In this document: in pieces, positions 16,878 through 26,107 of the stretch
How the letters are laid out: every line of letters begins with the position of its first letter
How positions within the stretch are numbered: position 1 is the stretch's first letter
Assembly (NCBI GenBank): GCA_027459325.1
Contig: DAIDIO010000001.1
Span: 124,001-188,000 of the forward strand
Direction: 5' to 3'
DNA: 64,000 nucleotides
From: Candidatus Saccharimonadota bacterium
GTDB lineage: Bacteria > Patescibacteriota > Saccharimonadia > Saccharimonadales > UBA4665
Translations under genes and position numbers: made by a program
The notes under the pieces: model-generated
Told to the model about the DNA's origin: nothing
Database searches by the model: none
The model's input: only the letters and a program-made list of their open reading frames with translations

Positions 16878-17090
16878 ATGAGCCAAAAAGTTATAAAAAT
16901 AGGTAGTTCTTTAGGTGTGACTATTCCTAAGAGTGAAATTGCTAAACTTCATATTATTCCTGGTGATGAAGTAGATATTACCATTCAAAAAAAGGTCACT
17001 CGTTTGGCAAAACACGAGCAATTATTAAAAAGTTTAGAGAGTTTCATGAATACTTACGATAAAGACCTTCGACAACTATCTAAAAAATAA
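16878..17090 (+). CDS. AbrB/MazE-type antitoxin
   Basis: 70 residues. The N-terminal swapped-hairpin DNA-binding domain is seen in KVIKIGSSLGVTIPKSEIAKLHIIPGDEVDI. The C-terminal ~25 residues are basic and helical and presumably wrap the toxin. Expected to neutralise the Doc toxin encoded directly downstream and to repress the operon. Its stop codon shares one base with the toxin start, so translation is coupled. Pairing of AbrB with Doc instead of Phd is less usual but known. Confidence 0.88.
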   Translation: MSQKVIKIGSSLGVTIPKSEIAKLHIIPGDEVDITIQKKVTRLAKHEQLLKSLESFMNTYDKDLRQLSKK

Positions 17091-17476
17091 TGAAATATCT
17101 AGATCCTGAAGAAATATTACTAATACATCACCAATTGATAGAGCGTTACGGTGGTGCTCATGGCACGCGTGATCTCGGTCGTATTAAGTCAGTTTCTGTA
17201 GCTCCTGCTCAACACGTCTTCGGAGAAGAACAGTACAAAAACATTTTTGATAAAGCTACTGTATATGCTCGTAACCTTATAGTTGATCATCCTTTCTATG
17301 ATGGAAATAAGCGCACAGGTATTACTTGCTCCATTATGTTTTTAAAGAAGAACGGTTATCATTTTAAAGCTATGCCCGGGGAAGTCGAAAAAATAGCTAT
17401 AAAAATTGCTGTACAGCAAATGTCTATACCGGATATCGGAAAATGGTTAAAAGCGCATTGCTTATATAAAGCATAA
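17090..17476 (+). CDS. doc: Doc/Fic-family toxin (death-on-curing)
   Basis: 128-residue Doc toxin. The Fic core is HPFYDGNKRTG at about residue 64-74, with catalytic His and the anion-binding loop; ILLIHHQLIERYGGAHGTRD at the N-terminus is typical of Doc. Doc phosphorylates elongation factor Tu and halts translation. The family's key residues are all present, so the module is likely functional. The gene ends 6 bp before the tRNA 3' end (CCA) at 17483, on the opposite strand. Confidence 0.9.
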   Translation: MKYLDPEEILLIHHQLIERYGGAHGTRDLGRIKSVSVAPAQHVFGEEQYKNIFDKATVYARNLIVDHPFYDGNKRTGITCSIMFLKKNGYHFKAMPGEVEKIAIKIAVQQMSIPDIGKWLKAHCLYKA

Positions 17477-17490
17477 GTACTTTGGTGGGG
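17469..17490 (+). repeat. Right direct repeat, overlapping tRNA 3' end
   Basis: AAGCATAAG-T-ACTTTGGTGG-G-G, matching the left repeat at 16631-16652. Its second half is the complement of the CCA end and first acceptor bases of the tRNA. The pair encloses 816 bp containing only the AbrB-Doc module and remnant sequence. Confidence 0.6.
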
Positions 17491-17558
17491 GTGCCTGGAT
17501 TTGAACCAGGGACCAATCGGTTATGAGCCGACTGCTCTAACCACTGAGCTACACCCCC
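17483..17558 (-). tRNA. tRNA with CAT anticodon (Ile2 or Met)
   Basis: Complete cloverleaf on the minus strand: acceptor GGGGGTG with CACCCCC, D-arm AGCTCAGTGGTTAGAGC, anticodon loop CTCATAA, T-arm CCTGG-TTCAAAT-CCAGG, discriminator A and an encoded CCA (17483-17485). The CAT anticodon means either elongator Met or, after lysidine modification by TilS, Ile for AUA codons. The acceptor and body resemble Ile2-type genes more than the 33268 copy does, but this is a weak inference. Confidence 0.9.
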
Positions 17559-17640
17559 GTGTAGTTTTATCTCAGCGATAAGCTAACAGATGAGAGTATA
17601 CCAGATTAGATCAAAGATATATAATATAACTTAGAGTTTT

Positions 17641-18093
17641 ATGATCGCCAAACTAAAAAATTTAAAAAAAATAGAATACTTTCTAGGCCGACTTAATGAC
17701 GTTAGGTTCATAGGTCAGGTTATTTTTGTGATTATAGTGTTATTAATCAGCTGGAGTGGAGTTAAATCTATTCAGACTAACTATAACCTTCAGAAGCAAA
17801 TTACAGCCTTAAGGCAACAGAATAGCTTGCAGCAATTACAGGATGAGAATCAAAAATTGCAGAATCAGTATTATCAGACAAATCAATATCTTGAGTTATC
17901 GGCTAGGCAAAATCTTGGACTTGCGGCGTCAGGCGAGAAGGAATTGTTAGTTCCATCTCAAGTCGCATTATCTTATACTGTAGATTTACCATCACTGGAT
18001 AAACTAAGCACAAGTGCCCCCAAAAAGTCTGCCATACAAAGTAATTTTCAATCTTGGATTGACTTCTTCTTACATAGACCTAACAATATGTAA
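17641..18093 (+). CDS. FtsB/DivIC-like septum formation initiator
   Basis: 150-residue bitopic membrane protein: basic N-terminus, transmembrane helix at about 25-43, then a long coiled coil (LQKQITALRQQNSLQQLQDE and on, to about 95), and a short C-terminal part with LELSARQNLGLAASGEKELLV, the characteristic end of the FtsB/DivIC family. These proteins scaffold the divisome and link FtsQ and FtsL to septal wall synthesis. TATAAT lies at 17620-17625, 15 nt before the start. Confidence 0.82.
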   Translation: MIAKLKNLKKIEYFLGRLNDVRFIGQVIFVIIVLLISWSGVKSIQTNYNLQKQITALRQQNSLQQLQDENQKLQNQYYQTNQYLELSARQNLGLAASGEKELLVPSQVALSYTVDLPSLDKLSTSAPKKSAIQSNFQSWIDFFLHRPNNM

Positions 18094-18144
18094 CCCTTTA
18101 CATTATTTACCCCTGTTGTTATACTTATATACTGATTCATTTAA

Positions 18145-18219
18145 CGCGGGGTGGAGCAGCGGCAGCTCGCGTGGCTCATAACCACGAGGTCGCAGGTTCG
18201 AGTCCTGCCCCCGCAACCA
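18145..18219 (+). tRNA. Initiator tRNA-fMet (CAT)
   Basis: Starts with C1 opposite A72, the mismatch diagnostic of bacterial initiator tRNA. Acceptor CGCGGGG with CCCCGCA, anticodon stem with three G:C pairs next to the loop CTCATAA, T-arm GCAGG-TTCGAGT-CCTGC and encoded CCA (18217-18219). Its 3' part is duplicated at 19307-19342, flanking a toxin-antitoxin module. Confidence 0.93.
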
Positions 18220-18230
18220 GATCATGCACC
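18195..18230 (+). repeat. Left tRNA-fMet-end direct repeat (att-like)
   Basis: 36 bp spanning the T-arm and 3' end of tRNA-fMet plus 11 bp beyond (ending AGATCATGCACC). It recurs at 19307-19342 with one mismatch, 1112 bp away. tRNA 3' ends are classical attachment sites for integrases, but no integrase gene is present between the copies. Confidence 0.75.
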
Positions 18231-18239
18231 AACAGGGTT

Positions 18240-18265
18240 AGACCGAGTTCCATGACCGGTCTTTT
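18240..18265 (+). terminator. Terminator after tRNA-fMet
   Basis: AGACCG (18240-18245) pairs with CGGTCT (18257-18262) and is followed by TTT. A related copy follows the tRNA-end repeat near 19350-19375. Confidence 0.6.
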
Positions 18266-18378
18266 AATTTGCTCCTTAAGCTCTCACCCCTGTTAGCCGG
18301 TTCTAGTCCTATCCCTATTGGCTCGAACCGCACAAAATCGTTGAAGATCCTATGTTAACTTCTCGGGGCGGTTCCAGA

Positions 18379-18409
18379 AGTGTCCAATCCTCTATATGAG
18401 GGCTGGACA
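18379..18409 (+). repeat. Conserved hairpin, copy A
   Basis: GTGTCCA..CCTC pairs with GAGG..TGGACAC around a TATAT loop. The 21 bp from 18391 to 18411 (TCTATATGAGGGCTGGACAC and one more base) recur exactly at 19510-19530. There is no T-run, so it is not an obvious terminator; it may be part of a small RNA or a recombination signal. Confidence 0.5.
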
Positions 18410-18513
18410 CCCAGAACCTATACCGTGTTCCATGACCGGTTTCTTTTATAGTAAGGTACCCTTAACTAACAGAACATGCGTAAATATTGCGCAAAAGTAC
18501 TATAAATTCACGC

Positions 18514-18948
18514 CTATTTATCTTTCAGTTGCGGAAATAAGTACCTAACTGAAGATGTATGAATAATTTTGGTGCCATTGAATTCTTTAAGTGACAACAG
18601 ATCCTGATCAGCAGTGATAATTAAGTCAGCCTTCGCTTCCAAGGCGCACTCCAGGATTTTATTATCGGCAGGATCGCGTTCAGTGAGAACGTCAACCTTT
18701 TGCTGAGGTCGTATTACTGTGACAGCTTCTTCAAGACGGTTCAGCCAGCGCACTACGTCAGCTCGTGAAAACCCAAGTTTAGGACTTTCTAACTTATCCT
18801 GCAGTTCCTGCAGTATTGCCGGGGAGGTGTAGTATTTGGCCAAATACTGAGCGGCTGAATCCTCAACTATCTTATAAATGATACTTTGCGGATTTAGTGC
18901 AGATGCAATATATACGTTAGTATCTAGCACTAACCTAACGGGTTTCAT
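18514..18948 (-). CDS. PIN-domain ribonuclease toxin
   Basis: 144 residues, of the group often annotated as 'putative toxin component, PIN family'. The acidic active-site residues are visible: Asp in LVLDTNVYIAS at residue 8, Glu in SPAILQELQDKL, Asp in ERDPADNKILECAL and Asp in ADLIITADQDLL. PIN toxins are Mg-dependent RNases, often cutting tRNAs or other structured RNA. The gene overlaps its antitoxin by 4 bp (18945-18948), so the two are coupled. Confidence 0.88.
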   Translation of the reverse strand: MKPVRLVLDTNVYIASALNPQSIIYKIVEDSAAQYLAKYYTSPAILQELQDKLESPKLGFSRADVVRWLNRLEEAVTVIRPQQKVDVLTERDPADNKILECALEAKADLIITADQDLLSLKEFNGTKIIHTSSVRYLFPQLKDK

Positions 18949-19160
18949 CCAAGATATTTTTCTATATCATCAATGCTGGTAAGGTTGAGAGCATCAAGTT
19001 TCTTACGGACTTGAGCTGACATGTCTTTCCAGGTTCGTTCCCAAGCAGCTTGCTCCAGCAGTCTACGCACTACAACACTTTTAGAAACGCCATCTTCCTT
19101 AGAGAAACGCTCGATCTCTTTTTTCAGTTTTTCGTCTAGTGAGATACTTAATGTTGTCAT
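18945..19160 (-). CDS. Ribbon-helix-helix antitoxin
   Basis: 71 residues. TTLSISLDEKLKKEIERFSK followed by GVSKSVVVRRLLEQ is a standard ribbon-helix-helix DNA-binding domain; the rest is helical and acidic at the end (SIDDIEKYLG), likely the toxin-binding part. On the minus strand TATGAT (19167-19172) ends exactly 6 nt before the ATG, so the operon message should be leaderless. Confidence 0.87.
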   Translation of the reverse strand: MTTLSISLDEKLKKEIERFSKEDGVSKSVVVRRLLEQAAWERTWKDMSAQVRKKLDALNLTSIDDIEKYLG

Positions 19161-19306
19161 GTCATTATCATAACAAAATAATTAATAATTTATAAGAACT
19201 TTATTAATAGTTTTACATTAGATTGATTAATCAAGAATGATTTTGACAGGTATGCCTATGTTAGGATACAGCTAGTCGCGGAAAAGACGGTGATACACTA
19301 TGGTTC

Positions 19307-19342
19307 GGTTCGAGTCCTGCACCCGCAACCAGATCATGCACC
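19307..19342 (+). repeat. Right tRNA-fMet-end direct repeat (att-like)
   Basis: Same 36 bp as 18195-18230 except for A instead of C at 19321. It includes the T-loop, the acceptor 3' strand and CCA, but the upstream half of a tRNA is missing. Confidence 0.75.
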
Positions 19343-19500
19343 CAAAAGACGAGGCCGAGTTCCAAGACCGGTCTCTATTAATTTACCACTGTTAAATCGG
19401 TCATTTTGGCCTATATTTTCAAAAACAATCAAAAGCAGCAATGTTAGGTTCGAACCTTCAATACACCTTTATTGCCCAGATTAACCCCGGTTCTAAAACC

Positions 19501-19530
19501 GTCCACTCGTCTATATGAGGGCTGGACACC
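19501..19530 (+). repeat. Conserved hairpin, copy B
   Basis: Shares 21 exact bases (19510-19530) with copy A at 18391-18411. The left arm has drifted (GTCCACTCGTC) but GTCC still pairs with GGAC, so the stem is partly conserved. Confidence 0.5.
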
Positions 19531-19577
19531 TCAAAATCTGACCGGGTTCCATGACTTATCTCCATCAAGATAGATAT

Positions 19578-19614
19578 CTAATTTACGACTGTCTACGTAA
19601 ATTAGTGGTACAAT
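19578..19614 (+). promoter_or_regulatory. Inverted repeat and -10 before the tRNA row
   Basis: A perfect 10-bp inverted repeat, CTAATTTACG (19578-19587) and CGTAAATTAG (19596-19605), separated by 8 bp, directly followed by TACAAT (19609-19614). It occupies the -35 position and could be an operator or an RNA-free DNA signal. It is the only promoter-like element before the Trp-His-Cys tRNA row. Confidence 0.45.
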
Positions 19615-19669
19615 TAAAACATGAAATATTGGCGCAACAAACTGCATTGTCATAACTCTCATCATTTGA

Positions 19670-19743
19670 GGGGGCTTAGTGTAATGGTAGCGCGTTAGAT
19701 TCCAAACCTAAAAGTAAACGTTCGATTCGTTTAGTCCCTGCCA
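19670..19743 (+). tRNA. tRNA-Trp (CCA anticodon), atypical
   Basis: Acceptor GGGGGCT with AGTCCCT (first pair G-T), D-stem GTGT/GCGC with loop AATGGTA, anticodon loop TTCCAAA with four clean pairs and one A-C mismatch next to it, T-stem AAACG/CGTTT with a normal TTCGATT loop, discriminator G and encoded CCA. The fold is complete but weak. A leaderless-looking 25-codon frame begins at 19621 and runs into it; I regard that as chance. Confidence 0.7.
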
Positions 19744-19774
19744 GATTAAGGCACGAGGGCTTTTTTAATAATTT

Positions 19775-19849
19775 GTTGAGCGTAGTTTAACAGTAAAACG
19801 TTAGCCTGTGACGCTAAAGACGCGGGGACAGCACCCGTCGGCCACCCCA
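19775..19849 (+). tRNA. tRNA-His-like (GTG anticodon), degenerate
   Basis: Anticodon arm TTAGC-CTGTGAC-GCTAA is perfect and reads GTG; G-1 pairs with C73, and CCA is encoded. The acceptor stem has three mismatches in seven pairs. The T-stem (GCGGG/CCCGT) is intact, but its loop is GACAGCA, without the TTC core, and the D-loop AACAGTA has no GG pair. It may be a pseudogene or a structurally reduced tRNA. Confidence 0.55.
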
Positions 19850-19862
19850 CAAGCTAGAGTAC

Positions 19863-19937
19863 GCGACCGTGGCGGAATAGCTGCGCAGCTGTTTGCAAAA
19901 CAGTTTTAAGCAGGTGCAAGTCCTGTCGGTCGCTCCA
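19863..19937 (+). tRNA. tRNA-Cys (GCA anticodon), atypical loops
   Basis: Acceptor GCGACCG/CGGTCGC is a perfect 7-bp stem with discriminator T and encoded CCA. Anticodon arm GCTGT-TTGCAAA-ACAGT reads GCA. The T-stem GCAGG/CCTGT is paired, but the loop is TGCAAGT (G where T55 should be), and the D-arm has only three pairs (GCG/CGC) and a loop without GG. The strong acceptor argues that the gene is maintained despite the unusual elbow. Confidence 0.65.
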
Positions 19938-19955
19938 AGCCAATTTACAATCCAA

Positions 19956-19982
19956 TAAAAAAGCCCCTCTAATGGAGCTTCT
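19956..19982 (-). terminator. Terminator for the 502-residue protein gene
   Basis: On the minus strand AAGCTCC-ATTAGA-GGGGCTT forms a stem (one G-T pair) followed by six T's. It lies at the end of the 19986-21446 gene and would also serve weakly for the tRNA row on the plus strand. Confidence 0.65.
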
Positions 19983-19985
19983 TAT

Positions 19986-21446
19986 TTACCAAACATTTAA
20001 TTTTGGTATAGGTGATTTGCCCTCAGAATTAAGTAACTCCGGATCGGCCATTTGATGAACAAAACCATAATAAAAACTACTGCCTGCTCCTGAAACTGAG
20101 CCGGCAGTTTTCCATTTGCCGAATTTTGCCAGATCATCTAAATTAAAATTGACGGGATTATTAGCTTTACGGACGGCGAACCAAGCTAGAGCTGCAAGTT
20201 GCCTTGAATTGCGCCGGGTTAGTATCCAAGGTTGCGACATGGCGGCGCAATCCAAAGCATAGTGGGCGATATCGAGCAGTGTGAATTCGTCGTCAGATTC
20301 CTCTGGAGCTGTAATATCCGGGTATTTCTCAGCTAATTGACTATATAATTCGGCTATTTCACGGCTTCTCAATTGATGAAATCCATCAATGTCTCCATGA
20401 GCATCCCCTAATAGTATTATGAAATCACTCCAAGAGTTTGGTAAATGTCGGCCATACTCAGCTTTAGACATAGCACAGCTGATTATAAAATCAGTCAAAG
20501 GCTGCTTAATATTATTTTGCCTGACATAATGATTAGCCAAAGACTGAATGCCTCTTACGACTCCGGCTAATTCATTAAGATTTTGCCGGTTTTGTAAGCT
20601 GCCAGCTTTAGATTGAACGATTTGGAGAAAGGCATTCAGGCCGCCTTGTGATCCTGATCTAGCGATCTGTTGAGTAATCTGTTGCAAAGTATCCTTTTTC
20701 AAACCGACGGCCCCTAAAGACATAGCTAGCCGCTTACTTGCACCGCTGGCTATTACTTGAAGTGCTTGTTCGACCGGTTGGAAATCAGTAACGCCCTGAT
20801 CTAGCCATATCTCCGCAGCAATCCTTTCTTCGGAAAGTAGGTTCTCGTCAAGCCAGACTTCGTCTAAATAAGTATAGGTAGGCAGACTAAGCTCGTTAGC
20901 GCGTGATTGATTAACAAATTTTGCCCCAAAAGCGCCTTGTCCGAGCTCGTGCCAGTGAAGGACTAGGGTTTTAAATATTGAGGGTTTCATGTCGTCCAAA
21001 TATTTCGGATATTGAGGGGGACGGTGCGCTTCAATAAGCTGCTCCAGTTTGTCCAGGTATAATTTAAAATTCTGATCAGTGGATGTTTGATCAAAGCTGT
21101 ATGTCATACGTAACCAATCTGCTCCTTTCCTAGCGCTTTCGCGCACTGTACCGTCAGTGTGTGTCATCCCGTAGAACGCGAAATCTATTGCCAGGTCTAG
21201 TTTCTTACCCGGCTTTATGTGCCAACCGAAGGCACCCAAAAGTGACAAAAAGGCTGCAAGCCTATAGGCGGGCTGGATACTTTCATAGCTGTTCACTAGC
21301 TTTAAATAAGTATCAGTTAAAGCATCAATATTTTTAACTCTTTTATATTTTAACTCTCTTAGTATTTGTTGCCGGGCTAACTTAACCTCGGCTTTATCAC
21401 CATACTTTATTTGGTTAAGTAAGTCGTTTAATTCTACTGTTGTCAT
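19986..21446 (-). CDS. Unknown helical protein paired with phosphoesterase
   Basis: About 486 residues from the ATG at 21446, which follows a GAGGGGAGAAAAGG ribosome-binding stretch; an open frame to 21494 lies inside the upstream gene. No domain is recognised. It is soluble and predicted almost entirely helical, with stretches (AYRLAAFLSLLGAFGW, VRESARKGADWLRM, LNAFLQIVQSKAG) suggestive of HEAT- or TPR-like packing. The start overlaps the phosphoesterase stop by 32 bp, so the two proteins are made from one message and probably act together. Located between toxin-antitoxin modules. Confidence 0.7.
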   Translation of the reverse strand: MTTVELNDLLNQIKYGDKAEVKLARQQILRELKYKRVKNIDALTDTYLKLVNSYESIQPAYRLAAFLSLLGAFGWHIKPGKKLDLAIDFAFYGMTHTDGTVRESARKGADWLRMTYSFDQTSTDQNFKLYLDKLEQLIEAHRPPQYPKYLDDMKPSIFKTLVLHWHELGQGAFGAKFVNQSRANELSLPTYTYLDEVWLDENLLSEERIAAEIWLDQGVTDFQPVEQALQVIASGASKRLAMSLGAVGLKKDTLQQITQQIARSGSQGGLNAFLQIVQSKAGSLQNRQNLNELAGVVRGIQSLANHYVRQNNIKQPLTDFIISCAMSKAEYGRHLPNSWSDFIILLGDAHGDIDGFHQLRSREIAELYSQLAEKYPDITAPEESDDEFTLLDIAHYALDCAAMSQPWILTRRNSRQLAALAWFAVRKANNPVNFNLDDLAKFGKWKTAGSVSGAGSSFYYGFVHQMADPELLNSEGKSPIPKLNVW

Positions 21447-22098
21447 GCCTTTTCTCCCCTCTAAGCAGTATTTTCGCAAATTTTTTACCGTCAATAACCT
21501 CTAGTGCAGAACCATCACCACAAAGACTGCCGTCTGGCATCGTAGAAAACGTATCAATGCACCAGACGTAAGGTTGAACTTCTAGGCATGTTTCCATCGG
21601 AGTATGCCCGAACACTTGAGGCTTGTCTTTATAGGTCACACTGCCGTAAGGTCTCGCCCAAATGGGGCTATTGTCACCCCATAAATTATTAGCATCTTGG
21701 ATGCCAGACCATTCGTTAGTTATACCGGCGTGAGAATATGTGACTCCGTCAATTTCTAAGGTTACAGGCATCTTTAAAAGCCACTCCTTTAGGTCTTTGT
21801 TCTCTGGTGAGTTAATTAACGTATAGGTTATATGGTTATATCCGGTTTGTAGGGAAGGCGTGTCATAAACATAGATATAATCATGATTGCCAAGAACTAA
21901 GTTTATTTTGTTTGGAAATTTGCTCTGTAGGCTTTTCAATAACTTCCAAGTACTTAGAGTGTCTTTCGGACCAGCATTAAAATCGTCCGCATAATCACCG
22001 CAGAAAACAACCTTGTCATAACTGCTCATGGCATTAACAACCCATTCCATTATCCAACTTTTTGTATGGATATCGCCTATAGCGAGTACCTTTCCCAT
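21415..22098 (-). CDS. Calcineurin-like metallophosphoesterase
   Basis: 227 residues with the full metal-binding set of the calcineurin-like family: GDIH at residue 8, CGDYADD at about 33, GNHD at about 69, SHAG at about 117 and GHTPME at about 167. The order and spacing suit PrpE/ApaH-like phosphatases and diesterases acting on phosphoproteins or dinucleotides, but the substrate is open. Operon partner is the 19986-21446 gene. It starts only 4 bp after the end of the ParE-like toxin gene, so all four minus-strand genes from 22673 to 19986 may be one transcription unit. Confidence 0.9.
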   Translation of the reverse strand: MGKVLAIGDIHTKSWIMEWVVNAMSSYDKVVFCGDYADDFNAGPKDTLSTWKLLKSLQSKFPNKINLVLGNHDYIYVYDTPSLQTGYNHITYTLINSPENKDLKEWLLKMPVTLEIDGVTYSHAGITNEWSGIQDANNLWGDNSPIWARPYGSVTYKDKPQVFGHTPMETCLEVQPYVWCIDTFSTMPDGSLCGDGSALEVIDGKKFAKILLRGEKRHDNSRIKRLT

Positions 22099-22102
22099 GT
22101 TT

Positions 22103-22414
22103 TTAAATTATCTTATCCCAATCTCTTCGTCCATATAACATGCGCCTGACTATCATGGAGTCATCTATAACAACATAAAATATCAAGTAGTTGCCGACAA
22201 TAATTCTACGATATTGATGCTCTCGTTCAGTTAATGATTTATAAACACTAGTCTGAACAGGAGATAGTAATCGTTTTTTAATCGTTGTTTCTACCTCATT
22301 GATTAAATTTAGCGCTGCTGATGGATTATTAAGTTCAAGTAAGATGTAGTCTGTAATTTTGTTTAGGTCTTCGTAGAATAGTGGAGAATACCTTAATCCA
22401 AATTTCTTAGCCAT
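22103..22414 (-). CDS. RelE/ParE-family toxin
   Basis: 103 residues. FGLRYSPLFYEDLNKITDYI, then a helix with LINEVETTIKKRL, and YRRIIVGNYLIFYVVIDDSM followed by RMLYGRRDWDKII form the standard RelE/ParE fold. The ending -YGRRDWDKI is typical of ParE/RelE toxins of the Phd-associated type. Whether it cuts mRNA at the ribosome or poisons gyrase cannot be told from sequence by eye. It overlaps its antitoxin by 8 bp. Confidence 0.88.
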   Translation of the reverse strand: MAKKFGLRYSPLFYEDLNKITDYILLELNNPSAALNLINEVETTIKKRLLSPVQTSVYKSLTEREHQYRRIIVGNYLIFYVVIDDSMIVRRMLYGRRDWDKII

Positions 22415-22673
22415 TTATTTTGGTTCTGATTTTGGTAAAAACATCTTCATGTGTCATGGTTTCGGGATTGGTCTTAGCAAAGCTATCAGCTTTATCTAGC
22501 GATTGCTCTATGTAGTCTAGATGCGCCATTTTGCTATACCTATCAAGGCTGATCAGTACCATTGAACCTCGACCATTTCTAGTAAAAATAATCGGCTTAT
22601 CGCTTTTATTAACCCTTTTTTCAATTTCCGTAAAGTTATTTCTTAGATCAGATATAGGCCTAATGTCTAACAT
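22407..22673 (-). CDS. Phd/YefM-family antitoxin
   Basis: 88 residues starting MLDIRPISDLRNNFTEIEKR followed by DKPIIFTRNGRGSMVLISL, the Phd/YefM DNA-binding fold; the C-terminal ~40 residues are the disordered toxin-binding part. Expected to repress its own promoter by binding the palindrome at 22702-22717. A GAAAGGA ribosome-binding site precedes the start on the minus strand. Confidence 0.9.
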   Translation of the reverse strand: MLDIRPISDLRNNFTEIEKRVNKSDKPIIFTRNGRGSMVLISLDRYSKMAHLDYIEQSLDKADSFAKTNPETMTHEDVFTKIRTKING

Positions 22674-22701
22674 ATAATTTATTCCTTTCTCTAACCCATA
22701 T

Positions 22702-22717
22702 TATCATAATTATGATA
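22702..22717. promoter_or_regulatory. Palindromic operator of the Phd-ParE module
   Basis: A perfect 16-bp palindrome, TATCATAA-TTATGATA, about 30 bp upstream of the antitoxin start. It overlaps a TATGAT that could be the -10 on the minus strand, the usual arrangement for Phd/YefM autorepression. Confidence 0.6.
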
Positions 22718-22898
22718 GAAAATTCAATGTAATTTGATTCGAGTTCTGGCGACTCTTGGGAGCGTTAGATAAGCACTTTGCTTAAAACAAGACGATATTT
22801 GGCTTGATAGCGTTGCGGTTATTGCCCATAACCTTGTGAGGCTTACATAATTTGTAGACCGATCGACTGGCTCTGGGTTTGTGATACTTATGGTTTGA

Positions 22899-23327
22899 CA
22901 TGCCTATTATGCTATGACATGGTACGGTCTGGTGCTTGCTAAAGCGTACGGAGAAGGCATTCCAGAAAATATGGCAATCGATAAAGATGGTAACCCTACA
23001 ACAGACCCTGAGGACGCTATGAATGGTTTTTTACTCCCGTTTGATAGAAGCTATAAGGGCTCTGGGTTAGGAATGGTAGTTGAAATGCTAGGAGGTCCAC
23101 TTGTGGGTGCTACATTTGGCCAGATTGAAGTTGACTGGGGAAGCTTATTTATAGCGATTGATCCAGGTTTATTAGTAGATATAGTGGAGTTCAAAGAGCA
23201 TAGCTCGGAGCTTATAGAAAAAATCAAGAACTCACGTAGCATTAAAGGGGTTCGTATTCCTGGAGAACGTGCTACTAAGGCTCGAAAAGAAGCTTTGGAA
23301 AACGGCTATGTTGAGGTAGATGAATAA
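22899..23327 (+). pseudogene. Truncated Ldh2-family malate/lactate dehydrogenase remnant
   Basis: 137+ codons matching only the C-terminal third of the malate/L-lactate (type 2) dehydrogenase family: GIPENMAIDKDGNPTTDPEDA, then LLPFDRSYKGSGLGMVVEML, GGPLVGATFG, SLFIAIDPGLLVD and VRIPGERATKARKEALENG. Family members are about 330-350 residues, so the NAD-binding and catalytic-His parts are missing. A stop lies directly upstream of the surviving part. A fragment brought in or left behind by island turnover. Confidence 0.75.
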
Positions 23328-23476
23328 TCTTAAAACAAATAGGTATTGTTTAGGGTCTAGTCTGCTGCGGTAGCATAATTCAATAGCCTTCTTTCCCGAT
23401 TCACATCTTTCCCTCTAACTAGCTTATATATTATAAGGTTCCAATTCGTTTGTTCTTTGGCAGCCAAACAATCCAA

Positions 23477-23504
23477 TTGACAAGTGATACACTTTTGATA
23501 CACT
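23477..23504 (+). promoter_or_regulatory. Promoter and tandem operator of the RHH-RelE module
   Basis: TTGACA (23477-23482) and TACACT (23499-23504) with a 16-bp spacer, ending 7 nt before the antitoxin ATG. The nonamer TGATACACT occurs twice (23485-23493 and 23496-23504), 11 bp apart, covering the spacer and -10. Tandem sites one helical turn apart are typical for ribbon-helix-helix repressors. Confidence 0.6.
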
Positions 23505-23511
23505 AAATGTT

Positions 23512-23736
23512 ATGAGTACAGCAAAATCACGTCTAAATATAAGCCTCCCTGATGACACCAAAAAAGCTCTTCTTAGTATTGCTAAGCGAGACCAAATGCC
23601 AGCGGCTACTAAAGCCGTACGTCTTATGGAAATTGGCATGGAGACTGAAGAAGATGAAGTATGGGATAAAATTGCTGCAGGTAGAGATAATAAAGACACC
23701 GTTTTTCACACACACCTTACTGTATTCGGAAGCTAA
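23512..23736 (+). CDS. Ribbon-helix-helix antitoxin (RelB-like)
   Basis: 74 residues. SRLNISLPDDTKKALLSIAK then MPAATKAVRLMEIGME is a ribbon-helix-helix DNA-binding domain. The acidic C-terminus (TEEDEVWDKIAAGRDNKDT) presumably contacts the toxin. The gene is directly followed, with no spacer, by the RelE toxin gene. Confidence 0.85.
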   Translation: MSTAKSRLNISLPDDTKKALLSIAKRDQMPAATKAVRLMEIGMETEEDEVWDKIAAGRDNKDTVFHTHLTVFGS

Positions 23737-24009
23737 ATGTACAGGATCAGCTATGCGGACGAGGTGGTCAAGGATGATTTACCTAATATTCTTGAGCCAT
23801 GGAAAACCGAAATTAGAAAAGCTATTGAAACAAAGCTAACGACACGACCGGAAATATATAGTAGACCTCTTCGCCGTTCTCTTAAAGGTTATCGTAAATT
23901 ACGAGTTGGCGGCTACCGCATCATCTTCAGAATAGAAAATAATAATGTGAAAATATTTATCATTCAGCACCGCTCAACTGTATATACGAAAGCTCCAGAC
24001 CGTCTTTAA
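23737..24009 (+). CDS. RelE-family mRNA interferase toxin
   Basis: 90 residues: MYRISYADEVVKDDLPNI at the start, then RPLRRSLKGYRKLRVGGYRI and the final strand NNNVKIFIIQHRSTVY. The L-K-G-x-x-K-L-R-x-G-x-Y-R-x-x-F/Y pattern is the RelE signature and includes the basic catalytic residues. Expected to cut mRNA in the ribosomal A site. Fourth toxin of the island. Confidence 0.9.
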   Translation: MYRISYADEVVKDDLPNILEPWKTEIRKAIETKLTTRPEIYSRPLRRSLKGYRKLRVGGYRIIFRIENNNVKIFIIQHRSTVYTKAPDRL

Positions 24010-24032
24010 ACCTACTCTCAAAAGAGGGGTTC

Positions 24033-24066
24033 GCTAGCCTAGAGTTCGAATGCCTCATCCCCAACC
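24033..24066 (+). other. tRNA 3'-end-like remnant
   Basis: Reads GAGTTCGAATGCCT then CATCCCCAACCA, resembling a T-loop followed by an acceptor strand and CCA, without a matching 5' half. It marks the right edge of the toxin-antitoxin-rich stretch and could be a worn attachment site. Weak evidence. Confidence 0.35.
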
Positions 24067-24142
24067 AAATAAGATTCATGACGAACCATTAAAACCTTTA
24101 ATTTAAAAAAAGCACAAATAGCTAGAGAGTTCAATTTGCTAG

Positions 24143-24391
24143 TCAAAGTCCTAGGGCTTTTTTGAATTTCCCTTGGTCGTAGCCGCTGATCTTAGTTACT
24201 TTGCCAGATCCGTCAGTAATAACTGAAAAAGGTACCCCGATCATGCCATCGTTCTTATCCATAAACTCAGCCATAACTATTGGATCGGTGTCGGTGATTT
24301 TTTTCTCATATGGCTGACCTATCTTATCAAGCCACATTTCTAGAGTGCGGCAGGCCGCGCAAATTGATGTTGAATAGATTGTTACTTTCAT
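24143..24391 (-). CDS. Glutaredoxin-like thiol oxidoreductase
   Basis: 82 residues with a thioredoxin fold. The redox motif is CAAC in IYSTSICAACRTLEMWL at about residue 12, the cis-Pro is in GVPFSVI, and a Gly pair follows in KISGYDQG. This CxxC is not the CPYC of classical glutaredoxins, and NrdH-like or mycoredoxin-like roles are possible. It lies 9 bp after dipZ on the same strand and has an AGGAGA ribosome-binding site, so it is likely the cytosolic electron donor or partner of that system. Confidence 0.85.
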   Translation of the reverse strand: MKVTIYSTSICAACRTLEMWLDKIGQPYEKKITDTDPIVMAEFMDKNDGMIGVPFSVITDGSGKVTKISGYDQGKFKKALGL

Positions 24392-24400
24392 TATTATCTC

Positions 24401-26107
24401 CTAACTCCCGAAGGTGAATGTATTAAGGGCTACGCCGTTTGGAACGGACAGCGTAACCGTTTGGTTACTATTAAATTTTGGTAAATTAACAAGGTTATAT
24501 AATCTTTGTCCTTGCAGAACCAATTGGCTGTTTGTTATATCGTTGCCGGCAGCCCCGGTTTGACTAATTGGTTGGTTATTCAAAGTAACGCTAATGTTAG
24601 CTGGAGAATTTGATCCCACAACTACATAAACGTTTCTAGCACTAAACTTAAAGGTTAATGTGCTACTGCCTCTAGCGACAATCTTATCGCCATCTATCTC
24701 CCAGGTACCACCTAGGGTCCAGCTGTTGCTGTCTAGGCTAGAGGCCGGCGTGAAGGTACTGACCGGTGCTGAGTCTAGTGCCGGTGAACCTTCGTAATCA
24801 CTGGCTCGGTTAAAGCCAAAGTAGGTCTCAGGTGTTTGATTCGCGGTAATCGGAACATTATTACTCTGTTCGGTGGGTTTTACATTTGTTAAGTTGGCGC
24901 CGTTATCTACCAGAAGCTGCCTTATAGCTTGCTCCTCCGTGGTATAGTCGCCTTCACCCAAATGGATCCGGCGAATATTTCCTTGAGCATCAATTAGATA
25001 GCCGGCTGGCCAGGTCTGGTTGTTGTAGGCATTCCAAGTGGCTAAGTTAGCATCTATTGCTACCGGGTAAGTTAGATGTTGCTGTTTAACTGCATTCTGG
25101 ACGTTACTAAGGACCTTTTCGTAAGAAAACTCCGGCGCTTCAACTCCAACTATTTCAAAGCCGTAGTTTTTGTAGCGTTCATACCAGGCTTCCAGATGAG
25201 GATTATTGCGGATGCAGTTTATGCAGGTATAGGTCCAGAAATCTACCAGAACAACCTTACCTCTGAGCTGCTTAATATGAAGTGGTTTACTGTTAACCCA
25301 GCCAGTTATTCCGGTGAAGTCCGGCGCCTTTATTGGTGGGCTAACATTCAACAGCTTAGCGTTATCCGTCTTATTTTTAGAGCTTGGCAACAAATTTTGG
25401 CTAAGACCGTCAAAGTTGAACGGAGTGTGGTTAGAGACATAGGTTTGGAATTTTACGCTATATCCGGTAGCAATTGCTAAGCCGACAAGAATAAATAGCA
25501 CGGCTATTACCTTTTGGAATTTGCCCCGCGGATCGGCTGCAAATTTTATTCTATTTATAAAGCTTTGGCCGTAATACCCAATACCCAGCAATATGACAGC
25601 TAAACCTATTACGTAAGAAACCATGTAAGCCATGGCTTCAGCGAAGTTTGCCGGTAGTACGCTAGCTAGTATGTAGGCGTAAACAGGGCTGCAGCTGGAG
25701 AAGACAGGCCCTAGAGCAGCGCCAATTATTATTGGTCCGGCAATTCCGCCCTTAGCCTTATAGCCTTTACCAAGAGCTTTCTGGGCGGCCGCCTCTATGC
25801 CCAGACCCCCTATGATTCGGGCGTAGATACCCGGAAACAGCATAACGATACCTAGGGCAATAATAATGCCACCTGAAAAGTAAGTAATGACGGCTGGTGA
25901 GATATTAATTAAAACCGTAGATACCTTGAGCAGCAGCGTAAAGATAATTATAGAAACCGCCAATGATACGGCTATGATGATTGGTCTTTTCTTATCCCTG
26001 GTGTTGCCTGTAACTGAGCCGCCAATAATAACTGGCAGCAAAGGGAGAACACAAGGGGCGAGAACGGTGAGGATACCGGCGATAAAAGCGGTTACAAATA
26101 AAAACAT
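24401..26107 (-). CDS. dipZ: DipZ-type CcdA-thioredoxin fusion protein
   Basis: 568 residues in three parts. The N-terminal CcdA/DsbD-like membrane domain (about 1-225, six to seven helices) has Cys in APCVLPLLP and FSSCSPVY, which shuttle electrons across the membrane. A thioredoxin/TlpA domain follows (about 255-400) with WTYTCINCIRNNP, the CxxC, and the cis-Pro in TWPAGYLID. The last ~150 residues form a beta-rich module with a jelly-roll look, as in actinobacterial DipZ. It would reduce or isomerise disulfides outside the cell. TATAAT precedes it by 15 nt, along with an AAAGG site. Confidence 0.9.
   Translation of the reverse strand: MFLFVTAFIAGILTVLAPCVLPLLPVIIGGSVTGNTRDKKRPIIIAVSLAVSIIIFTLLLKVSTVLINISPAVITYFSGGIIIALGIVMLFPGIYARIIGGLGIEAAAQKALGKGYKAKGGIAGPIIIGAALGPVFSSCSPVYAYILASVLPANFAEAMAYMVSYVIGLAVILLGIGYYGQSFINRIKFAADPRGKFQKVIAVLFILVGLAIATGYSVKFQTYVSNHTPFNFDGLSQNLLPSSKNKTDNAKLLNVSPPIKAPDFTGITGWVNSKPLHIKQLRGKVVLVDFWTYTCINCIRNNPHLEAWYERYKNYGFEIVGVEAPEFSYEKVLSNVQNAVKQQHLTYPVAIDANLATWNAYNNQTWPAGYLIDAQGNIRRIHLGEGDYTTEEQAIRQLLVDNGANLTNVKPTEQSNNVPITANQTPETYFGFNRASDYEGSPALDSAPVSTFTPASSLDSNSWTLGGTWEIDGDKIVARGSSTLTFKFSARNVYVVVGSNSPANISVTLNNQPISQTGAAGNDITNSQLVLQGQRLYNLVNLPKFNSNQTVTLSVPNGVALNTFTFGS

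Follow-up and report, generated by a model that had tools for sequence, protein, structure and literature searches.

A row of three tRNA genes, for Trp, His and Cys, is found in a 64,000-nucleotide stretch of DNA from a Candidatus Saccharimonadota bacterium (the window, by which the whole analysed stretch is meant), and the D- and T-loops of its His and Cys members depart from the usual tRNA pattern. The question raised by this locus is whether these genes are decaying remnants or tRNAs in which the contact between the two loops, the elbow, is built in a different way, and what role such a row may have. The features of the locus are collected in Table 1.

Table 1. Features of the window around the Trp-His-Cys tRNA row.
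Feature	Position	Strand	Basis
tRNA-Met, initiator-like (C1.A72 mismatch); insertion apparently at its 3′ end	18145..18219	+	ARAGORN, Rfam
att-like direct repeat, copy 1 (tRNA 3′ end and downstream sequence)	18195..18262	+	repeat D1
PIN-domain (VapC-like) toxin gene	18514..18948	-	Pfam PIN_3, 1.9e-16
Ribbon-helix-helix antitoxin gene	18945..19160	-	Pfam RHH_1, 9.6e-7
att-like direct repeat, copy 2, immediately upstream of row	19307..19374	+	repeat D1
-10-like box TACAAT, 6 nt before leader ATG	19609..19614	+	-10-like hexamer in all five homologues
Leader ORF MKYWRNKLHCHNSHHLRGLSVMVAR, rich in Trp/His/Cys codons, running into tRNA-Trp	19621..19698	+	kept in five genomes
Predicted leader hairpin (anti-tRNA): His/Cys codons and CTCTCA paired with 5′ part of tRNA-Trp	19645..19681	+	MFE, four of five homologues
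tRNA-Trp (CCA anticodon), canonical elbow	19670..19743	+	ARAGORN, Rfam
Predicted terminator-like hairpin: tRNA-Trp 3′ strand and AGGGCTTTTTT; excludes tRNA-Trp acceptor stem	19733..19766	+	MFE
tRNA-His-like gene (GTG), A18/A55, G54/G58, acceptor 4/7	19776..19849	+	Rfam
tRNA-Cys (GCA), A18/G55, G19 and C56 kept	19863..19937	+	ARAGORN, Rfam
502-aa protein	19986..21494	-	no Pfam match; 24% identity, E 1e-21, to row-adjacent ORF of G216
Calcineurin-like phosphoesterase	21415..22098	-	Pfam Metallophos; 66% identity to cassette ORF of G216

The row proposed in an earlier note on this DNA (19670–19937) is real. Its genes score 56.1 (Trp), 34.9 (His-like) and 48.2 bits (Cys) with the Rfam tRNA model RF00005, all above the gathering score of 29 bits. 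The stems had also been described exactly: the anticodon stems and T-stems of His and Cys are paired throughout, the acceptor of Cys is a perfect 7 bp, and that of His has three mismatches, at 1:72, 4:69 and 5:68. The acceptor of Trp pairs in 7/7 positions including wobble pairs, and Cys has an encoded CCA. The anticodon stem of tRNA-Trp contains an A31.C39 mismatch, which is kept in all five genomes that carry the row. Canonical copies of tRNA-Trp and tRNA-Cys are present elsewhere in the genome (822,790 bp in 27 contigs, 91.5% complete); a second tRNA-His was not found in this 91.5% complete assembly, from which tRNA-Asn and others are absent as well. G063, a relative with the row, has canonical tRNA-His, -Cys and -Trp outside it. 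Because such copies exist elsewhere, in the own genome for Trp and Cys and in G063 for all three, the row is regarded as a second tRNA set. The idea that all tRNAs of the lineage are odd was rejected, as 30 of the 31 own-genome tRNAs recognised by the scan outside the window have GG and T55-C56.

The loop sequences quoted earlier for the two genes are correct: AACAGTA and GACAGCA for the D- and T-loop of His, AATAGCTG and TGCAAGT for those of Cys, with A18 and G19 in both. The claim built on them, that His and Cys lack both halves of the elbow contact, does not hold, since the outer elbow pair G19-C56 is present in all three row tRNAs and the change concerns 18-55 alone, plus 54-58 in His. The elbow of His and Cys is exchanged, not lost. 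With the canonical bacterial elongator tRNA (RF00005) the row shares the cloverleaf, U8, T33, CCA, G19-C56 and a score above gathering. The canonical tRNA has G18-U55 and T54/A58, whereas the inner contact is A18-G55 in Cys and A18-A55 in His, and His has G54/G58; the inner contact of Trp is normal. The proposed likeness to organellar tRNAs is not borne out either. An organellar tRNA with a lost elbow loses both contacts between the D- and T-loop, whereas here the outer pair is retained, residues 18 and 55 covary and the inner pair is exchanged in a defined way.

This covariation is seen most clearly in viral tRNAs. The His D-arm, used as a query against viral contigs, leads to tRNAs with the T-loops TGCGAAT and GGCAGAA; neither the conserved T-arm of His nor the D-arm of Cys, both taken from the window, gave a tRNA in these contigs. 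Counts of gapped patterns in these contigs were dropped as a statistic, as 29 gap lengths are estimated to yield several chance matches and many matched loci contain no tRNA by structure. A structural scan of the fetched viral loci was used instead, which requires stems, U8 and T33 and is blind to the sequence of the D- and T-loops. The first set comprises 634 tRNAs from 109 loci, in which AG D-loops occur with G55 in 24 cases, with A55 in one and with T55 in none, and GG D-loops with T55 in 552 cases and with G55 in none. The second was fetched with a bait fixing nothing but the D-arm with A18, and its bait-matched tRNAs have G55 in 53 cases and T55 in five. All bait-matched tRNAs were then removed and the rest clustered at 85% identity, giving 1158 tRNAs from 184 contigs. 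Here the concordant combinations are G18G19/T55 (920) and A18G19/G55 (98), against one A18G19/T55 and eight G18G19/G55; seven of these eight read A-G-G (A18-G19-G20), so that residue 18 is likely A in them too. Fisher's test on the 18/55 association gives 2e-126, which overstates the significance, since related tRNAs do not count as independent observations. The 98 A18G19/G55 tRNAs span 37 anticodons and 33 contigs, and tRNAs of the A18/G55 type have stem scores of 20.35 out of 21, compared with 20.38 for canonical ones. The earlier view of a correlated change rather than random decay is well supported by this covariation. The T-loop pair 54/58 of the viral tRNAs (loci L031–L298) is limited to T/A, A/T, G/G and A/A, and A/T (e.g., AGCGTTA) is seen with both elbow types.

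The same combination occurs in cells. When bacterial and archaeal genomes are searched with the bait and a free T-loop, G55 is present in 62 tRNAs and T55 in nine; the tRNAs come from Patescibacteria, Omnitrophota, Clostridia, Nanoarchaeota and further groups. An example is the saccharibacterial MAG G289 (95% complete), where the sole Thr(TGT) tRNA among the 38 type I tRNAs recognised has A18, the T-loop GGCAGAG, perfect stems and an encoded CCA. Near-identical genes are present in L306 and L342, titled Saccharibacteria, and in L335, titled Nomurabacteria. If this is truly the only tRNA for ACA in G289, the alternative elbow works in translation. It is well supported that A18/G55 marks a general viral-type class of tRNAs, widespread among viral tRNAs and present in cellular genomes as well. 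Cys and the His of four relatives fit this class (A18 with G55, G19 and C56, good stems), and the window His, with A55, does not fit it fully. In the searchable literature, with its few subscription papers, no description of such a class was found, an absence which proves little. Another elbow variant appears in tRNA-Gly(GCC) of G289 (C20, C7; L461, L463), L003 (76–152, minus strand) and L433 (494–570) and in tRNA-Ala(TGC) of G289, which have the D-loop AGTTGTTTA and the T-loop TTAGAGT. These chromosomal tRNAs have U19/A56 instead of G19/C56, an exchange within the outer elbow pair that may be compensatory.

In tRNA, residue 18 contacts 55 by inserting between 57 and 58; the exposed elbow pair, used by many partners, is 19-56 (PMC4810234). 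In other RNAs with the T-loop sequence UGNRA, an A from outside the loop is placed against its G, forming a composite GNRA turn (PMC2258182). A18 together with G55-C56-R57 fits this composite turn, and the change can be read as a motif swap which keeps the outer surface. According to this reading, the entry of residue 18 into the T-loop would be unchanged, A18 would be paired with G55, and the GNRA-type turn would consist of G55-C56-R57-A18. The combination of U54 G55 C56 R57 A58 with an outside A would be the same composite motif as the lonepair triloop/T-loop motif of riboswitches and rRNA, whereas in the row tRNAs it would stand in for the contact between the D- and T-loop. Since position 55 is not U, A18/G55 tRNAs need no pseudouridine 55, and they would fold as an L without it; such independence might bring an advantage. 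Reviews call position 55 universally conserved and treat G18/G19 as constant (PMC4810234, PMC9976931), and the exchanged 18/55 pair bears on tRNA finders, on TruB dependence and on enzymes that recognise the elbow.

A deviating elbow is shared by the staphylococcal non-proteinogenic tRNA-Gly, in which GG at 18-19 is changed to UU or CU (PMC4052509). The altered elbow and the small set of amino acids could suggest that the row, like these tRNAs in staphylococcal wall synthesis, provides dedicated aminoacyl-tRNA donors for a non-ribosomal reaction. This is very improbable: the row has AG rather than UU or CU at 18-19, the annotated neighbours include no aminoacyl-tRNA transferase, and the same elbow occurs in the sole Thr(TGT) tRNA found in G289.

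The distribution of the row bears on whether it is decaying. A pattern search with the tRNA-His detected the row in two further genera, and BLAST found it in five of 93 genomes of the family, belonging to five of 41 genera (the window genome, G063, G147, G182 and G216). This occurrence is patchy; BLAST against 21 relatives returned the window row itself as the sole match, because carriers are rare. The row, its spacing and its leader are 86–93% identical across genera over about 300 bp. The His of the four relatives has the T-loop GGCAGCA, with G55, and an acceptor of TTGGCCG with CGGTCAC or CGGCCAC, forming 6/7 pairs; its first acceptor pair is U1.C72, and G-1 and C73 are present in all. Judged against these homologues, the window His, with TTGAGCG/CGGCCAC and A55, is a decayed copy. 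A wider search of 393 genomes of the order added just a distant array in G057, a member of another family. This array (L451, L460; C61) contains at least 15 tRNA genes, in which canonical and A18/G55 types are mixed, and its His has U1.C72 with C73, as in the row.

The earlier note had held that canonical copies elsewhere, plus no expression of the row genes, would make these simple pseudogenes. Canonical copies do not lead to this conclusion, as the row is conserved between genera. That the genes are pseudogenes left by an old insertion agrees with the canonical Trp and Cys in the same genome, with the lost G55 and mismatched acceptor of the window His, and with the damage in G182, where the row Cys is impaired and the row tRNA-Trp (L428) has a damaged D-arm and the anticodon TCA, which would read UGA and is probably a product of decay. 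This explanation is nevertheless improbable in view of the identity of row, spacing and leader across genera, of the Cys, which retains its full acceptor, CCA and matched A18/G55, and of the His, which is intact in three relatives and kept with compensated T-stem changes in G182. Decay looks confined to the window His and to Trp and Cys of this one relative.

The position of the row points to mobility, and the mobile origin suggested in the earlier note gains support from the patchy distribution together with repeated tRNA 3′ ends. The row is preceded by tRNA-Met in three carriers (the window, G063 and G182), by tRNA-Asn in G216 and by a 3′ fragment of tRNA-Gln in G147. The 25-nt 3′ end of the window tRNA-Met recurs at 19307, within a 68-nt direct repeat (D1) whose copies are 87% identical; a second repeat pair, D2, lies at 18369–18436 and 19488–19555. 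Copies of the tRNA 3′ end that flank an insert number three in G063 and two in G216, and G182 has a partial second copy. In the window, two copies enclose the toxin module that directly precedes the row, and no copy was found beyond the row. Four of the five carriers, even the one with tRNA-Asn, have a sequence resembling GACCGnGTTCCnTGACCGGTCT after the tRNA end. Among the neighbouring ORFs examined by Pfam, no integrase or recombinase gene was found. The data support the view that the row is a mobile cassette, for which three different tRNA genes have apparently provided the 3′ end as insertion site.

Upstream of the row a short reading frame is conserved. It starts with MK(Y/N)W and contains HCHNS in all five genomes, as in MKYWRNKLHCHNSHH of the window and MKYWCHNIHHCHNSHH of G182. 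Genomes differ in it by an in-frame 3-nt indel and by synonymous changes (CTG/TTA, CAT/CAC, TAT/TAC), and the other two frames of the region contain stops. Trp, His and Cys, the amino acids of the three row tRNAs, make up five to nine of the 15 leader residues, compared with 3.5% expected from the ORFs of the window (Trp 0.9%, His 1.9%, Cys 0.7%), which gives a binomial P of 1e-4 to 3e-10 per leader. This triple is the most enriched of all 1140 residue triples in the leaders, although the five leaders are related and count as one case, the changes within which are consistent. On these grounds a leader peptide is well supported as the product of the frame. Each of the five genomes has a -10-like hexamer 6–7 nt upstream of the ATG, which suggests a leaderless transcript; a generic promoter scan did not report the TACAAT box at 19609.

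The leader also weighs on the idea that the row is an accessory set of phage origin, constitutive and serving codon supply, in which the leader ORF would be incidental and the elbow variant a neutral drift fixed in viruses. Signs of such an origin could be seen in the frequency of A18/G55-type tRNAs in viral arrays, in the G057 array, which shares the elbow types and, in its His, the U1.C72 mismatch, and in the 76% identity between the tRNA-Trp and one from a phage. Codon supply is unlikely, however, given a conserved leader with exactly the three cognate residues, and given that Trp, His and Cys, rare in the window ORFs, are a poor choice for general supply.

A regulatory role of the leader is suggested by RNA folding, which predicts two mutually exclusive folds of the 5′ RNA: the leader hairpin with the terminator-like hairpin, or the folded tRNA-Trp. 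The terminator-like fold, in which AGGGCUUUUUU is paired with the 3′ strand of tRNA-Trp, is the MFE form for four of the five homologues. All pairs of the leader hairpin are kept in the five homologues, and 98% of cells are paired with one compensatory change (G182, terminator stem). With only five similar sequences, 212 of 500 pair shuffles do at least as well; the fold z-score is -0.84, and a terminator scan found none, including the 19733–19766 hairpin. When the leader is masked in silico, in a model without tertiary structure, G063 and G147 show a clear shift of pairing to the tRNA and G182 a partial one, whereas the window and G216 show none. The switch is offered as a tentative model. 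In this model, ribosomes would translate the leaderless Trp/His/Cys-rich peptide, and a shortage of charged tRNA-Trp, -His or -Cys would stall them on the leader, and the leader hairpin could not form. The tRNA-Trp would then fold, the overlapping terminator would be prevented, and His and Cys would be transcribed. A ribosome running on into tRNA-Trp would favour the leader hairpin and the terminator form. The row is best seen as the cargo of a small mobile cassette at tRNA 3′ ends; it brings a second Trp/His/Cys set, in which His and Cys have an alternative elbow, and the set is probably controlled by leader-peptide attenuation. Of the readings of this locus, this one is judged moderately probable.

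Such an attenuator, which we infer from the leader and the predicted folds, resembles those of the trp/his type: cognate codons abound in a short ORF, which is followed by a terminator-like hairpin that competes with another fold. The differences are that the row leader precedes tRNA genes and covers three amino acids, and that the alternative fold is the tRNA itself. No match to the T-box covariance model, up to an E of 10, was obtained in the Rfam scan of positions 17000–24500. The searchable literature, in which few subscription papers are included, describes no peptide-attenuated tRNA operon, though absence there proves little. To our knowledge, a leader peptide whose residues correspond to the tRNAs encoded behind it would, if true, be a new use of attenuation. 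Two other systems are comparable. First, among the tRNA arrays of phages and mobile elements, the trn operon of an Anabaena megaplasmid likewise places extra tRNAs on mobile DNA beside housekeeping tRNAs, and it is kept off until induced, with TrcR as the repressor (PMC10272220); the row has three genes only, and its control would be a cis-acting peptide rather than a TrcR repressor. Second, in the yjdF riboswitch a tRNA fold also competes in cis with an alternative pairing (PMC9142559), whereas there a ligand drives translation control and here a ribosome would drive termination.

What the second set could be for is suggested by its neighbours. RNase-type toxin genes (VapBC, PemK, HepT/NTase) lie near the row in four genomes, and the fifth has a ParE-like gene; the PIN toxin with its RHH antitoxin is 86–94% identical in three genera (window, G063, G182), the copies of the PIN gene in G063 and G182 being 86–92% identical. 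The use of these tRNAs as decoys by toxins, raised in the earlier note, is a conjecture, though the row does lie beside VapBC and other toxin genes of the RNase type. The row could be a backup against tRNA nucleases, its altered elbow resisting the neighbouring toxins (VapC, PemK, HepT type) or anticodon nucleases of host or phage, so that translation is restored. The nearly identical VapBC in three genera and a leader that would sense the loss of exactly these tRNAs speak for it; islands at tRNA flanks gather toxin genes anyway, the anticodon loops of the row are ordinary and the toxin type differs among genomes, and the proposal is rather doubtful. A little less doubtful, and still tentative, is a mobile response to tRNA loss, in which the leader would sense a shortage of Trp, His or Cys tRNA, the fold of the first tRNA would control termination, and the spare elbow would escape elbow-acting enzymes. 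Under the reading judged moderately probable above, too, the spare set may replace tRNAs lost to nucleases.

In the window, the stretch of about 240 bp that follows the initiator tRNA is present twice and encloses the PIN/RHH toxin-antitoxin pair, as if toxin cassettes were stacking at the initiator tRNA. In G063, a TOTE-type primase-helicase gene (L421, 7023–9149) stands beside VapBC, inside the repeats of the tRNA-Met 3′ end.
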